From an uncultured Candidatus Cenarchaeum sp. (GTDB lineage: Archaea; Thermoproteota; Nitrososphaeria; Nitrososphaerales; Nitrosopumilaceae): a DNA stretch of 64,000 bases. The position numbers and the translations under genes are program-made. Of this stretch, positions 7,827 through 55,389 are shown one piece after another. The first letter of the stretch is position 1; each line of letters starts with the position of its first letter. The notes under the pieces are model-generated. The model had not been told where the DNA came from and made no database searches. It worked only from the letters and a program-made list of their open reading frames with translations. The DNA lies in contig OY282369.1 of NCBI GenBank assembly GCA_958295735.1, forward strand, positions 1,410,161-1,474,160, given 5' to 3'.

Positions 7827-8972
7827 CTCCGGCAGCCGGCGGGCGGTTTTTCCGGGCCGCGCCTGCGGCAAAAACGGCCGGCGGGCGGTTCAAACGCGCG
7901 ACAAGGGGGCGCGGGAAGGGGCGCGCGTGGCCCGGAACGGCCAAAGCGCGGGTGGCCAGGAGGCGCGCGCAATGGCGGCCCGAGGAATGCGGGCGGGCCG
8001 CCCGCGCGGTTCGCCGCACGGGCCGCCGATCTGGTTGCGCGGCAGTGCGGGAAGGCGCATGCGGGCGCCGCCGGGGCGCCGCCGGGGCGCCGCGGGCCGA
8101 TCGCGCCGCGGCCCGCGAAAGCCTGCCGGAGGGCGGAGGACCGGCGCCGCCGGCTCCGGCCGTGCAGGGGCGCGGGAAGCGGGTGCGTCCCGTGTGGGGG
8201 CATGCCGGCGCCGCGCCGGCACTTCCCGGGCGCGGATTTTGAACGCGGCGGCGCCGCGGCCCCGAAATTACCGCGCAAAGATCCGCGCGGTCGGGCGTTC
8301 GGATCGCCGCGGCGGCAGAGCCGGACGGCCGACCCGCGCGCCGGGATGATGCCGCCACCCCCGGGTCGAAGATCCTGCGCAGGGCGTTAGCGGAACAGGG
8401 CCGTCGCTACGGAGAAAACCGCTTCAAAACCGTAAGTCGAAGATCCTGCGCAGGGCGTTAGCGGAACGGGGCATCGGGGCACGAAGGGGCGCAACGCGGC
8501 GCGCGGGCCGGACGGCCGCTCGCGCGTGGCGGCGAAGGCGGGGCGCGGCGACGCATCCGCCGGGTCCTGCAAAAAACGCGCGGCGGGAGGCCGAGGCGTC
8601 CAAGAAAGAACGCGGGTGCGGCGCGCGTTCCCGTTCCCGCCATGTACTCCACAAGCGCCGCAAAGCCGGACGACGCGATCGGATGCCTCGGCGGGACGCC
8701 GCGCCGCCCCCCGCGGCGCGCGCCGGCACGGGACGCCACGCGGCCCGGATGCAGCCCCGTCGCGGGCATCGCCGCAAAGGCCGCGGAAGCGATCGGGAAA
8801 AACTGCCCCCGCCGGATGGGGGGAGGGGATGGAAACGGGGAGGCGCGGTCTTCGCGCGGCGCGCCGAATTCCTCGCGCGCCGCGCATTTTCCGGAATGCG
8901 CGCCGGCCGCCCCCGCGGCGGAGGGGGATGCCCGCGCGCCGCGCGCAGGATCGGCGCGGCCCGCCGCGCATG
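7827..8972. other. Long GC-rich intergenic region, no convincing gene
   Basis: About 1.15 kb between the promoter of the giant protein and the next plus-strand TATA box. Many frames stay open because of the extreme GC content, but the translations are Arg/Ala/Pro-rich and show no family features. It contains a repeat-insert-repeat unit (8365-8467). Stretches around 7878-7910 and 8765-8840 resemble 10270-10300 and 10640-10730, so this region seems to be a diverged relative of the intergenic region 10264-11027. Confidence 0.6.
8365..8467. repeat. Repeat-insert-repeat unit 1 (32/39/32 bp)
   Basis: A 32-bp sequence beginning GTCGAAGATCCTGCGCAGGG at 8365-8396 recurs exactly at 8436-8467. The 39 bases between (8397-8435) match neither copy. 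The repeat contains the palindrome CCTGCGCAGG. Period 71 bp. First of five such units with unrelated repeat sequences. Confidence 0.9.
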
Positions 8973-12167: not shown

Positions 12168-12280
12168 CTACGGGGCCGCCGGGCCGGCCGCTCACTTAAA
12201 ATCTTTGTATTGCCAGGCGCGGTTTCGGTTCGGGCGCAAGCCTGCACGCGGGGCGCGTTGCGCAGTTTTCCGCCGGGGGC

Positions 12281-12389
12281 GGCGCCAAACACTTACAAGC
12301 CGAGCCGGCCCGGGAACTCAGGGCCTCCATCATAGAGCAGCACAAGGAGGTGGGCGCCAAACACTTACAAGCCGAGCCGGCCCGGGAAC
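12281..12389. repeat. Repeat-insert-repeat unit 2 (37/35/37 bp) at the 5' end of rqcH
   Basis: A 37-bp sequence beginning GGCGCCAAACACTTACAAGC at 12281-12317 recurs exactly at 12353-12389. The 35 bases between (12318-12352) are unrelated. Period 72 bp, a multiple of three, so the rqcH frame stays open through both copies. The only in-frame start codon upstream of the conserved N-terminus (GTG 12350) is the end of the insert. Confidence 0.93.
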
Positions 12390-14428
12390 CCCGTGAGCCC
12401 ACGAGCCCCAGGGCCCCCGCCGCCGCGCGGCGCCGGGCGCTAGGGCGCGGGGGAAGGGGGGGGGGGGGGCGCACGGACGTCGCCGGCGTCGAGCTCCGCT
12501 ACCTCGTGGGCGACTTGGCGGCCCGCTCGGCGGGCTACTACGTGAGCAACGTGTACGGGGTGTCGCGGACCAGCCTCCTGCTCAAGCTGCACCACCCGGA
12601 GAGGCCGGACATCATGCTGATGCTCTCCACCGCGGGGCTGTGGCGGAGCTCGGCGCGCATACGGCAGATCGAGCCCAACCGGTTGCTGGCGCGGCTGCGC
12701 CGCGACCTGCTCAGGCTCAGGCTCGAGGGGGCGGAGCAGCACGGGACCGAGCGCGTCGCGTACCTCCGGTTCGCCGGGTTCGGGAGGGCGCGCACGCTGG
12801 TCGGCGAGTTCTTCGGGGACGGCAACATCGTGCTGTGCGGGGACGGCATGAAGATACTGGCCCTGCTGCACTCGCTCGACGTGCGCCACCGCACGCTGGC
12901 GGTGGGCCTCGCGTACGAGCCGCCGCCGGCCAACTGCCTGGACGCCTTTTCGGTCACGGGCGCCGCGCTGCGGGGGGCGCTCGCCCCCGGGCTGGCGGCC
13001 GACCGCTGGCTGGGGCGCGCGCTCGGGCTGCCGGCCCGCTACGTGGGCGCCGCGCTGCGCGGGGCGGGGATCCGCCGGGATGCCGACTGCGCGGGGCTCT
13101 CCGGCGCGCAGCTGGACTCGGCGGCCCTCTCCGTCCGCGGCATGCTGGAGGCGGTGGCCGACGGCGGCAGGCACGATCCCGCCCTGGTGGAGCCCCCGGG
13201 AGGGGGGGAGCCCGAGGTGCACCCGATAGATCTGGCCGCCGGCGGCGAGCGGACGCGCGTGCCGAGCTTCGCGGAGGGCCTGGACAGGCTGTTCACCGAG
13301 CGGATCCTGCGGGCCGGGCGGGAGGCGCAGTCGGCCGGGTCGGACGGCAGGGCGCGCGAGCTGCTGGCCAGGCTGGACGAGCAGGGGAAGGCCGCGCAGG
13401 CGGTGCGGGAAAAGGCGCGCCGCATCTCGGATCTGGCGGCCGCCCTCCTGGGGCGGCGCGGCGGCGCGCCCGGCTCCCCGGCGCCGTCCTCGCTCGGCGA
13501 CGCCGCCGCGGCCGCCGTCATGAAGCTGCACGGCGCCGAGCTCGCGCTCGAAAAGGGCGCGCCGGTGGTGCGCGTGTGCGGGGAGAGCGTGGCGGTCGAT
13601 CCCGGCTCGTCGCTGCACTCGGCCGCCTCCAGGCTGTACGATGCCGCAAAGAGGCAGTCGGGGGCCGTCCCGGCCATAGAGCGCCAGCGCAGGAAGACGC
13701 AGGCGCTGCTGGAGGAGGCGCGGGGCAGGTCGAGGCGCGAGCGGGACTCGGTCACCGCGTCCGAGGTGAGGAGGAGGGCGTGGTACGAGAGGTACCGCTG
13801 GTTCTTCACAAGCGACGGCGCCCTGGCCGTCGGGGGCCGCGACGCCTCGTCCAACTCGTCCATAATACGCAAGCACGCGGAGGCGGGAGACCGCGTGTTC
13901 CACGCCGAGGTGCTCGGCTCGCCGTTCTTCGTGCTGAAGCCGCCGGACGGCGGCGCGCACACGGAGGCCGGCCTGCGCGAGGCGGCCCACGCGACGGCCT
14001 GCTTCAGCAGGGCGTGGCGCGAGTCCATGCACGGGCTGAACGCGTACTGGGTGGAGCCGGAGCAGGTCAGGAGGTCCGCCCCGTCGGGGCAGTACCTGCC
14101 GAGGGGGTCGTTCTCCATAACGGGCAGGCGCAACTTCGTCAGGGTGCCGGCGCTGAGGCTGGCGGTGGGGGTCTCGCGCGCGGGCGGGGAGGGGGAGGGA
14201 CGCGCGGTCTCGTGCGGGCCGCCCGATGCGGTGAAAAGGAGCAGCGCCGCGTACGCGGTGATAGAGCCGTCCGGCCTCGCGATGGCCGATGCGGCAAAAA
14301 AGGTGAGGGCCGAGATCGCGGGGATAGACGCGGAGGCCGCCGCCGGCGCCTCGCTGGACGACTACATGCGCGCCCTGCCCGCTGGCAGGAGCCGCGTCGC
14401 GGGATCGGGGAGGGGCGAGCTCCGGTGA
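12350..14428 (+). CDS. rqcH: RqcH/NEMF-family ribosome quality-control protein
   Basis: The NEMF/Rqc2/RqcH family binds 60S/50S subunits stalled with a peptidyl-tRNA. Domains in order: NFACT-N from about residue 45 (VELRYLVGDLAARSAGYYVSNVYG, LLLKLHHPERPDIMLMLST, GEFFGDGNIVL), a helix-hairpin/coiled-coil middle, and the NFACT-R domain near residues 470-590 (RYRWFFTSDGALAVGGRDAS, SIIRKH, GSPFFVLKPP, YLPRGSFSI). The 692-residue length fits. The start is unresolved: conserved sequence begins right after a run of 14 G (12456-12469), the only in-frame start before it is GTG 12350, and the first 40 residues (GAKHLQAEPAREPREP...) are not family-like. A homopolymer error or an unusual start is possible. 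Confidence 0.93.
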   Translation: MGAKHLQAEPAREPREPTSPRAPAAARRRALGRGGRGGGGRTDVAGVELRYLVGDLAARSAGYYVSNVYGVSRTSLLLKLHHPERPDIMLMLSTAGLWRSSARIRQIEPNRLLARLRRDLLRLRLEGAEQHGTERVAYLRFAGFGRARTLVGEFFGDGNIVLCGDGMKILALLHSLDVRHRTLAVGLAYEPPPANCLDAFSVTGAALRGALAPGLAADRWLGRALGLPARYVGAALRGAGIRRDADCAGLSGAQLDSAALSVRGMLEAVADGGRHDPALVEPPGGGEPEVHPIDLAAGGERTRVPSFAEGLDRLFTERILRAGREAQSAGSDGRARELLARLDEQGKAAQAVREKARRISDLAAALLGRRGGAPGSPAPSSLGDAAAAAVMKLHGAELALEKGAPVVRVCGESVAVDPGSSLHSAASRLYDAAKRQSGAVPAIERQRRKTQALLEEARGRSRRERDSVTASEVRRRAWYERYRWFFTSDGALAVGGRDASSNSSIIRKHAEAGDRVFHAEVLGSPFFVLKPPDGGAHTEAGLREAAHATACFSRAWRESMHGLNAYWVEPEQVRRSAPSGQYLPRGSFSITGRRNFVRVPALRLAVGVSRAGGEGEGRAVSCGPPDAVKRSSAAYAVIEPSGLAMADAAKKVRAEIAGIDAEAAAGASLDDYMRALPAGRSRVAGSGRGELR

Positions 14429-25920: not shown

Positions 25921-25994
25921 CAGGCCCGCCGGCCGCGGGGGCGCCTCCCCCGATCCGGATTCCCGCCGGCCGCCCGCCCCCCCCCGCGCGGGGC

Positions 25995-26170
25995 CGGCAG
26001 CCCCCGCCCCGCGGGCGCGAATCCGGATCAACGAAAGCGCTTTCCCGCCCGTGGCTGGCGGGCATGTGGCCCCGCGCCCCGTACGAGGTCAGCAACCCCC
26101 GCTTCGCAGGCGCGAACGCGGATCAACGGAGTCGTTTTCACGCCCGCGGCCAGCAGGTGCGTGACCTCAT
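25995..26170 (+). repeat. Dispersed repeat family B, two tandem units
   Basis: Two units about 95 bp apart. The cores (26014-26050 and 26109-26144) run GGCGCGAA...CGGATCAACG...TTTTC(A/G)CGCC, with ends able to pair (GGCGCGAA with TT(T)CGCGCC). Between them lies GTACGAGGTCAGCAACCCCC. Related loci: 31003, 47735, 55104. Confidence 0.85.
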
Positions 26171-28299: not shown

Positions 28300-28692
28300 T
28301 TGGCAAACTTCAAGCTCAACATATCCGACTCAAAGGGGCACTCCGCCACCAAGGAGCTGAAGGATGCCGACGCCCTGCCGCTCATCGGACTGCAGATCGG
28401 ATCCGAGATCGAGGCCTCGGCGGCCGGGCTTGACGGCAGGCTGGCGATAACCGGCGGCAGCGACAAGTCGGGCGTCCCCATGCGCCCTGACGTCCACGGG
28501 GCGGCCCGCAAGCGCGTCCTCCTGTCGCGGGGGGTCGGGCTGCGCGACGCCGAAAAGGGGGAACGCGTGCGCAAGCTGCTTCGCGGGAACCAGGTCTCCG
28601 AGGAGATCTACCAGGTCAACTGCCGCCTGCTGGATGCCGAGCTTCCCGCGCCGGAGCCGGCGGAAGGCGGCGGCGAGCAGCCGGGCAAGTAG
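28300..28692 (+). CDS. rps6e: 30S ribosomal protein S6e
   Basis: 130 residues, normal for archaeal S6e, a small-subunit rRNA-binding protein. Diagnostic stretch: LIGLQIGSEIEASAAGLDGR, LAITGGSDKSGVPMRPDV, KRVLLSRGVGLRDAEKGERV and RKLLRGNQVSEEIYQVN. TTG 28300 is about 29 nt after CGTTAATTAG. The stop codon lies inside the first copy of a repeat-insert-repeat unit (28683-28796), which ends the gene without changing the protein. aIF2 gamma follows, as in many archaea. Confidence 0.97.
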   Translation: MANFKLNISDSKGHSATKELKDADALPLIGLQIGSEIEASAAGLDGRLAITGGSDKSGVPMRPDVHGAARKRVLLSRGVGLRDAEKGERVRKLLRGNQVSEEIYQVNCRLLDAELPAPEPAEGGGEQPGK

Positions 28693-28796
28693 GCGGGCCG
28701 GCCGGCCCCGCGGATCGGCTCGATCCAAAGCTGAGGTTCCTGCGCCTTTTTGGGGCAAGTAGGCGGGCCGGCCGGCCGGCCGGCCCCGCGGATCGG
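28683..28796. repeat. Repeat-insert-repeat unit 3 (36/34/44 bp) over the S6e stop codon
   Basis: The sequence from 28683 (GGGCAAGTAGGCGGGCCGGC, to 28718) includes the last codons and stop of rps6e. It recurs at 28753-28796 with an 8-bp GGCCGGCC expansion. The 34 bases between (28719-28752) are unrelated. Period 70 bp. Confidence 0.9.
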
Positions 28797-30234: not shown

Positions 30235-30678
30235 GTGTGCGATACCAGCTTCCTCTTCCACGTCGCGAGCGCCAGAATCAAGAACGCCGGCTCGCTGGAT
30301 GCCGAGATCGGGAGCATCTCGTTCCTGGTGCCGGGTGCCGTGATGCGCGAGCTGGAGGGGCTGGCGCGCGACCCGAGAAAGGCCGCCGCCGCGGAGGCGG
30401 CGGCGCGGTACGCGGGGCGGCTCGGCCGCATCGGCCTGCCGCAGGGCGGCGACGCGGACGACTCCATCGTGCGGCACGTGGCGGGCTCCGGCGGCGCGCC
30501 GCTCGTGGCCACCATGGACGCCGCCCTGAAGCGCCGCGTGAAGGAGGCGGGCGGATCCGTGGTGTCCGTGGCCGGCGACCGGATAGTCCTGGAGGAGGGC
30601 GGGGGAGCGTCTCCCCGGGGGCCCCGCCGCGGCGCGCGGGCTTGGGCCGGCCCGGGGCGCGGGCCGCGCCGCCGCTGA
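30235..30678 (+). CDS. PIN-domain protein (FCF1/Utp24-like archaeal type)
   Basis: 147 residues. PIN nuclease acidic residues are seen in MCDTSFLFH (Asp 3), VMRELEGLA (Glu), GGDADDSIVRHV and LVATMDAALKRRV. An archaeal PIN protein right after aIF2 gamma is a recurrent arrangement, linked by family resemblance to rRNA processing; the actual substrate here is inferred. The last about 30 residues (GASPRGPRRGARAWAGPGRG...) are low complexity and run into the 47-bp tandem repeat, so the C-terminus may have been remodelled by it. Confidence 0.88.
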   Translation: MCDTSFLFHVASARIKNAGSLDAEIGSISFLVPGAVMRELEGLARDPRKAAAAEAAARYAGRLGRIGLPQGGDADDSIVRHVAGSGGAPLVATMDAALKRRVKEAGGSVVSVAGDRIVLEEGGGASPRGPRRGARAWAGPGRGPRRR

Positions 30679-30903
30679 ACTGCGCAACGCGCTGCGGGCG
30701 GGCCCCCCGCGGCCGGCTCGGCCGAACTGCGCAACGCGCTGCGGGCGGGCCCCCCGCGGCCGGCTCGGCCGAACTGCGCAACGCGCTGCGGGCGGGCCCC
30801 CCGCGGCCGGCTCGGCCGAACTGCGCAACGCGCTGCGGGCGGGCCCCCCGCGGCCGGCTCGGCCGAACTGCGCAACGCGCTGCGGGCGGGCCCCCCGCGG
30901 CCG
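30669..30903. repeat. 47-bp tandem repeat, five copies
   Basis: Five copies of a unit containing CTGCGCAACGCGCTGCGGGC followed by GGGCCCCCCGCGGCCGGC, almost without differences, directly after (and touching) the stop of the PIN gene. There is no unique sequence between the copies, so it is a minisatellite, not a spacer array. 47 is not a multiple of three. Confidence 0.95.
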
Positions 30904-31002
30904 CGCCGATGCGCGCGGGCGAGGCAGCCGCGGGGAGGCGGCAGGCGGGATGCGGGGAGCCCGCGTGACGCCGCGCCCGCGCCGCGGGCCGCGCCGCGCG
31001 AG

Positions 31003-31195
31003 GCCGGTAGCCCGCCGGCCGCAAGCGCGAAAACGATTTCGTTGATCCGGATCCGCTCCCGCGGGGAGGGGGCCGCCGACCTCGTGCGGCGCGCCGTACG
31101 AGGCCACGTACCCGTACGTCACGGGCGCGAAAACGCCTCCGTTGATCCGGATTCGCGCCTTAGAAGCGTGGGTTGCCGACCTCGCGCGGCGCGCC
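31003..31195 (-). repeat. Dispersed repeat family B, two tandem units, inverted
   Basis: Two 98-bp units. Cores 31025-31056 and 31123-31159 read GGGCGCGAAAACGCCTCCGT and TGATCCGGATTCGCGCC; the unit ends CCGACCTCG(T/C)GCGGCGCGCC recur at 31076 and 31174. Opposite in orientation to the copies at 26014 and 26109. Confidence 0.88.
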
Positions 31196-47622: not shown

Positions 47623-47734
47623 CGCCGGATCCCGCCCCCCGCCGCGGGCCCCCCGCGCTCCTCACACGGGTGCATGCCGGGGATCACGAGTGCGCCGTCT
47701 CCCGTGCCGTAATAAAGTTTCACGGGGCCCGGCG

Positions 47735-47905
47735 TGCGAGGCCAGCAACCCCCGCTCCGCGGGCGCGAATCCGGATCAGCGGAGTCGTTTTCGCGCCCGT
47801 GACTGGCGGGTACGTGGCCTCGTACGGCCCGGCGGCGGGGTCGCGCGCCCGTCGGCCGCGGGCGCGAAGGCGCCTCCGCCGATCCGTATTCGCGCCCGCG
47901 GCCGG
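47735..47905. repeat. Dispersed repeat family B, two cores in opposite orientation
   Basis: Core 47761-47799 (GGGCGCGAATCCGGATCAGC, GGAGTCGTTTTCGCGCCCGT) and an inverted core 47860-47899 (GGGCGCGAAGGCGCCTCCGC, CGATCCGTATTCGCGCCCG). The segment GTACGTGGCCTCGTACGG between them recurs inverted at 31096-31116. Lies in the 430-bp gap before aIF2 alpha, which is otherwise empty up to the AGGATTAAATTG box near 48020. Confidence 0.85.
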
Positions 47906-48051
47906 CCGGCCGGCGCGCCCCGCCTGCCGCGGATCCGGGGCGTCGGGCGCATCGGGGCCGGGGATGCGCCCCGGGCGGGCGGCGGTCCGGCCGCCGGCAT
48001 CGCGGGGCGCTCTCCCGGCAGGATTAAATTGCCACCCCGGCCAGCGCGCGC

Positions 48052-55103: not shown

Positions 55104-55215
55104 CCTGCCGGTATGGGGCCGCGTACCCGCCAATCACGGGCGTGAAAACGCCTCCGCCGATCCGGATCCGCGCCTGGGGAGCGGGGGCTGCTGACCTCGC
55201 ACGCCTGCCGGCGCG
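55104..55215 (-). repeat. Dispersed repeat family B, single unit
   Basis: Core 55138-55173 (GGGCGTGAAAACGCCTCCGC, CGATCCGGATCCGCGCC) with flanks GGGGCCGCGTACCCGCCAAT and GGGGGCTGCTGACCTCGCACG that match the units at 31096-31195. Confidence 0.85.
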
Positions 55216-55284: not shown

Positions 55285-55389
55285 CCCCCGACCCGCCGGC
55301 GATCTGGCGCGGCAGGAACTTATCCGCGCGGCCCGGCCCGCCGCATGGCCGCCGCCCCCGACCCGCCGGCGATCTGGCGCGGCAGGAAC
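55285..55389. repeat. Repeat-insert-repeat unit 4 (35/35/35 bp)
   Basis: A 35-bp sequence containing GACCCGCCGGCGATCTGGCG and ending GCGGCAGGAAC at 55285-55319 recurs exactly at 55355-55389. The 35 bases between (55320-55354) are unrelated. Period 70 bp. Located just past the 3' end of the CARF gene. Confidence 0.93.

Follow-up and report, generated by a model that had tools for sequence, protein, structure and literature searches.

A putative off-target CRISPR spacer integration upstream of rqcH, and units of the same build across an archaeal chromosome with type I-G genes

Off-target spacer integration by CRISPR adaptation proteins is already known from engineered or purified systems. Passages of PMC9456107 and PMC11788318 cite off-target integration by overexpressed Cas1-Cas2 in E. 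coli (Nivala, Shipman and Church 2018), and passages of PMC6895254 describe off-target integration in vitro by the Cas1-Cas2 proteins of S. thermophilus, with guanine preferred at the attacked position. For the type I-G system of Methanosarcina barkeri, a smear of PCR products was taken as a hint of nonspecific integration in vitro, according to passages of PMC10504553. In the open-licence literature, which leaves out most subscription journals and bioRxiv, we found no report of a natural chromosome with many such scars.

The DNA analyzed in this study (hereafter, the window) is a stretch of 64 kb corresponding to C1:1410161-1474160 of a one-contig genome of 3,166,131 bp, and the G+C content of the window is 71.5%. 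Upstream of rqcH, a 37-bp sequence (R) is doubled, with identical copies (37/37) at 12281-12317 and 12353-12389. The period is 72 bp, or 24 codons, in agreement with the in-frame 72-bp unit that the first-pass annotation had placed before the RqcH N-terminus. The 20-mer core of R occurs twice in the 64 kb, against an expectation of 0.01. Between the two copies lies a spacer-like insert of 35 bp (12318-12352), and its edge with the second copy is ambiguous by two G, a division into 36 + 36 fitting as well as 37 + 35. When 12260-12479 was searched against the own genome, positions 12318-12354 proved to be a 37/37 copy of C1:881995-882031, 540 kb away, at the 3' end of a different ORF of about 163 residues without an NCBIfam match. 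Homology between insert and source ends at the insert edges, apart from the two G common to R, indicating that the unit consists of a fragment copied from elsewhere and flanked on each side by the target sequence. No uninserted allele of this site was found in the relatives scanned (the best 80 of 234, at 43-47% identity; 60% in a genus mate, G001). Going beyond the first-pass annotation, we describe the unit on the basis of its sequence as a spacer-like insertion with a target duplication on the 36-bp scale, of a kind that recurs across the genome.

Further units in the window were taken from a scan for exact repeats at short distance. The second unit, of the same build, lies at 8365-8467 and consists of an identical 32-bp R (8365-8396 and 8436-8467) around an insert at 8397-8435, with a period of 71. 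Positions 8402-8436 match the own genome at 2752562-2752596(-) in 32 of 35 positions, and other dispersed places in the genome match the insert at 80-96%. The third unit (55285-55389) has the same build, with an identical 35-bp R (55285-55319 and 55355-55389), an insert at 55320-55354, and a period of 70; its insert matches 1091606-1091640(+) in 33 of 35 positions, exactly over the width of the insert. A doubtful pair at 28683-28777 (period 70, 25 bp, nested with a pair of period 78) is counted in the catalogue of 59 pairs given below. The window also contains GC-rich elements of about 95 bp, dispersed in both orientations (25980-26169, 30990-31188, 47728-47921, 55109-55203, and others), related copies of which elsewhere served as uninserted paralogues. 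Tandem arrays were found at 30677-30903 (a 47-bp period, near-perfect, 4.8 copies, between ORFs) and at 464-1818 (a 60-bp period, 22 copies, in a long ORF with NHL-like repeats).

For the rest of the genome, we sampled 20 evenly spaced stretches of 20 kb, one of which fell inside the CRISPR array and was left out of the count, and then 20 more. Together with the window and stretch L011, and with the array stretches excluded, the sample amounted to 860 kb. A mismatch-tolerant scan at periods of 30-130, leaving out tandem arrays, identified 146 non-tandem, near-exact repeat pairs in this sample, including 53 at periods of 70-74, 8 at 65-69, and 3 at 75-79. The second 400-kb sample, drawn after the first, again peaked at 70-74, with 20 pairs versus 3 and 3 in the neighbouring bins. 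Minor peaks at 100-104 (16 pairs) and 120-124 (21 pairs) appear, to judge by the sequences, to be repeated protein domains.

Periods of 67-75 comprised 59 pairs at 53 sites of the 860 kb, and the two R copies were identical in 46 of these pairs, with one difference in 10 and two differences in 3. In the 46 units whose R reached 30 bp or more, its median length was 36 bp. At five of the 53 sites, two or three inserts that differ from each other were present. A part of the 59 pairs (e.g., L018_16668, L026_19542, and L085_6450) probably represents ordinary repeats. With neighbouring periods as background, we estimate by extrapolation about 170-200 units per genome. Only six of the 59 units were more than 80% inside coding-like ORFs, which cover 68% of bases, and this intergenic bias may come from target choice or from selection. 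A G-sense outermost base of R was found at 27 of 46 ends (p = 0.009). Additionally, at L018 6215-6470 a GC-rich R is present in four copies that enclose three different inserts, forming a neo-array; one of these inserts contains GAGTTGCGGAAAG, with which the genuine CRISPR repeat ends on its leader side.

Pairs at periods of 49-80 were absent from 800 kb sampled from three relatives (G001, G019, and G008). In 400 kb of G001, which belongs to the same genus and is without a Cas1 match, ten pairs were found at periods of 48, 81, 81, 84, 114, 120 (four times), and 126, and in G019 and G008, both with Cas1 and sampled at 200 kb each, there was no pair at any period scanned. With respect to Cas1, the G001 result is a correlation only. 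The G+C contents of these controls were 58% (G001), 42% (G019), and 37% (G008), both Cas1-bearing genomes being far lower. Since the G+C content of the relatives differs, the neighbouring periods within the own genome provide the better control.

The genuine CRISPR array of this genome is a single array of 528 perfect copies of a 36-bp repeat, extending over about 40 kb (C1:2941355-2981981; stretches L010, L030, and L081). Its spacers are 33-39 bp long, with a period mode of 71 over the 457 spacers measured in two stretches. The build of the dispersed units matches this ruler, as the median R equals the length of the repeat and the period mode is 71 in both sets. The mean period was 0.5 bp lower in the 46 clearer units than in the array (71.1 vs 71.6; Welch p = 0.009, Mann-Whitney p = 0.015, KS p = 0.38). 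In the part read, the array is interrupted at two places (L030 128-1500 and 6437-8088), the second interruption being a sequence with copies elsewhere in the genome.

The only Cas1 gene in the genome adjoins the array and encodes a Cas4g-Cas1g fusion (NF049935, 711 bits, cut-off 560), for which the closest solved structure is 7mi4, a Cas4/Cas1 fusion. Cas2 adjoins this gene, and the array is flanked at its opposite end by Cas3g, Cas8g, and Cas7g. The type I-G genes covered (the Cas4-Cas1 fusion, Cas2, Cas3g, Cas8g, and Cas7g) are all present, and the predicted adaptation module is complete-looking. A second match to Csb1/Cas7g was found far from the array (C1:1154762-1155253, minus strand, L111), perhaps a second type I-G effector module. 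None of the 457 array spacers had an 18-mer match in the sampled part of the own genome, indicating that array spacers and unit inserts are largely of different sources. Likewise, none of the 59 inserts matched an array spacer, and the sole insert match in an array stretch (L030 7189-7226) is the element that interrupts the array.

Alignments of flank, R, and flank without the insert were found somewhere in the sampled genome for 21 of the 59 units under a loose criterion. For five units (L017_10330, L086_9086, L099_6054, L082_15969, and L019_3303), the uninserted paralogues aligned without gaps at 84-95% over 110-117 bp, which argues for insertion and not deletion. Automatic boundary scoring in seven empty-site alignments of six units gave duplication lengths of 32, 36, 46, 46, 36, 48, and 42, and one substitution would bring the first of these to about 36. 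Given this range of 32-48, the value of 36 should be read as central and not as exact.

A search of the whole own genome was carried out for six units, and four of them matched over most of the insert, with identities of 100% (rqcH), 94% (55285), 91% (8365), and 89% (L013_19078). No own-genome source was found in this search for L016_15959 or for L095_12796, the latter with 40 of 97 candidates scored. In the sampled part, sources spanning the insert were found for at least four more units, namely L031_16051 (a multicopy element), L024_1520, L085_15526, and L092_10304. These results indicate that self DNA is a frequent source of the inserts and not the sole one.

By eye, no common motif of the PAM type was apparent in the flanks of six sources, where the boundaries are blurred by chance matches. 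The ends of R with their flanks matched the leader-repeat junction at 5.31 of 16 positions, compared with 5.37 of 16 at random places. This chance-level match lowers the specificity of recognition, and likeness to the junction is not required by definition. Archaea are not known to have IHF. A preference for stem-loops or cruciforms in R was not clearly above that of shuffled sequences, 14 of 200 shuffles reaching the observed value.

The build of R, insert, and R, the copied insert, the array-like period, the recurrence, the uninserted paralogues, and the complete-looking adaptation module form the observed basis for our main reading. We consider it probable, at roughly 0.88, that the rqcH unit is a single off-target CRISPR spacer integration ("neo-CRISPR") by the type I-G Cas4-Cas1/Cas2, whose role we infer from these features. 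The Cas4-Cas1 fusion together with Cas2 would take up a piece of roughly 35 bp that derives from the end of another own gene. At a non-CRISPR site upstream of rqcH, it would then attack the two strands at points about 36 bp from each other and join the piece to both. Repair of the gaps would leave the target duplicated on both sides of the piece, on the 36-bp scale, just as happens to the repeat in a normal array. Dozens of other sites on the chromosome, most of them intergenic, would carry the mark of the same reaction, and at rqcH the insertion would happen to bring an in-frame GTG as a candidate start.

Another integrase or transposase could in principle make 36-bp target duplications with a short variable cargo, and the genome does contain many dispersed elements and array interruptions resembling insertion sequences, one such multicopy element being matched by the insert of L031_16051. 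We regard this explanation as very unlikely, however, as the inserts examined have no common ends and come from different places, the lengths of insert and duplication both equal those of the array, and no transposase is known to us to mobilize anonymous fragments of 35 bp. Repair of breaks by templated end joining, or replication slippage there, seems less probable still. Such repair does generally leave a copied filler with duplicated sequence on either side, yet a broad spread of lengths would be expected from it, whereas the period is fixed at 70-74 with R centred on 36, and at several sites additional inserts were gained without a change in spacing. That the units derive from ordinary coding or tandem repeats, or from errors of assembly, with an accidental peak, is hardly credible even in a genome rich in tandem repeats and with peaks at 100-104 (16) and 120-124 (21) that apparently come from protein domains, because the sequences between the copies are unrelated to each other and uninserted paralogues exist. 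A coding-repeat reading was rejected on account of the periods of 70 and 71, which are not multiples of three, and of the position of 53 of the 59 units mostly outside coding-like ORFs.

The unit also bears on the start of rqcH. The gene (12350-14428, plus strand) is an otherwise intact equivalog by its match to RqcH_arch (NF041120, 430.7 bits, cut-off 400), with the conserved part beginning near 12473 and with Pfam NFACT-N and NFACT-R domains. The first-pass annotation had named the GTG at 12350-12352 (plus strand), inside the insert, as the only in-frame start before the conserved region, and our scan of ATG, GTG, and TTG codons agrees. From the in-frame stop at 12197 up to the conserved region there is no other such codon, so that this interval would have none without the insert, and the next in-frame GTG (12506) is already inside the conserved segment. 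This candidate start is a Val codon of the source gene, in the same frame, near the end of the captured fragment (...AAG GAG GTG GG) and in the third codon position block from that end.

Start codons were compared in the best 80 of 234 relatives, and one incomplete record was dropped. In the 79 readable named relatives, the codon aligned with ACG at 12473-12475 (plus strand) was ATG in 68 and GTG in 11. The earlier suggestion that the insert created or displaced the start thus holds insofar as the insert carries the only canonical in-frame start and none is left without it; it falls short at the ACG, which is not explained by an insert 121 bp upstream. Either the start of rqcH is this ACG, or it is the GTG brought by the insert, or it lies further inside, or the sequence has one wrong base. 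The expected N-terminus of Cas2 (L010 16424-16440, minus strand) seemingly has no ATG, GTG, or TTG either, and a CTG is found there. The CTG of Cas2 and the ACG of rqcH may hint at non-canonical start codons, or at start decay, in this genome.

A TATA-like promoter box, AGTATA(A/T)T, was found 25-30 bp before the start in six of six relatives, and was absent at the matching place before rqcH in this genome, which is G-rich. Outside the rqcH frame, GTG 12393 is the sole start downstream of the insert, and its frame closes at the TAG at 12441. Because this stop precedes the G run described below, a wrong count of G, as in the indel considered in the first-pass annotation, cannot free GTG 12393. 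R also contains an AT box, AAACACTTACAAG, placed 24-36 bp ahead of GTG 12393, a distance where an A+T peak is seen across 292 ORFs; its reading as a promoter was rejected, as that frame closes at 12441.

The run of 14 G already noted in the first-pass annotation (12456-12469, plus strand) is the longest homopolymer of the window, followed by runs of G8 and C9. As for the phase-variable expression suggested in the first-pass annotation, the run is inside the rqcH ORF if GTG 12350 is the start, and otherwise in the leader only. G/C runs of at least 12 numbered 51 in 860 kb of the own genome versus one in 400 kb of G001, indicating that such runs are a general trait of the genome and that G14 is not special to rqcH. 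These long runs are of 12-17, mostly 12-13 (e.g., in L020, L023, L027, and L092), and the 400 kb of G001 contain a single run of 12 and a single run of 10.

A bolder version of the main reading would make the adaptation complex a genome-wide insertional mutator, which places host and foreign fragments into intergenic DNA at about 200 sites, some of them growing into small arrays, and which at rqcH, an essential-type ribosome rescue gene, has supplied the start with a self-derived spacer, the ancestral ATG now being ACG. We consider this full version unlikely. If the off-target reading itself is true, a natural chromosome with dozens of footprints would imply that CRISPR adaptation can act as a persistent source of mutations. 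The units would then also provide a ready-made data set on where Cas4-Cas1/Cas2 integrates when the array is missed, as well as a model for the birth of a new CRISPR array from ordinary sequence. In addition, scattered repeat-spacer-repeat calls by CRISPR finders would be real integration scars in some genomes, and not false positives.

Among the described systems, the mini-CRISPR arrays of archaeal viruses (PMC6858448) resemble the units in being very short repeat-spacer units; they reportedly carry host-type repeats, whereas every site in this genome has its own R sequence. As in the off-target events of S. thermophilus described in passages of PMC6895254, non-CRISPR sites were used, and the G-sense ends of R agree with the guanine preference. 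According to the same passages, those events were probably half-site, on plasmids, and resembled the leader-repeat junction, in contrast to the full duplications without junction likeness found here. The type I-G system of M. barkeri has the same gene set and a Cas4/1 fusion protein, and chromosomal footprints, absent from the passages of PMC10504553 considered here, are present in this genome. The closest likeness in build is to the neo-CRISPR events of Nivala et al. (2018), as cited in passages of PMC9456107 and PMC11788318, in which a spacer-sized fragment in a non-CRISPR site is reportedly likewise flanked by a repeat-sized target duplication. Unlike those events, the units described here belong to a natural archaeal chromosome that is free of engineered overexpression and encodes a Cas4-Cas1 fusion of type I-G, and their fixed sites number in the dozens.
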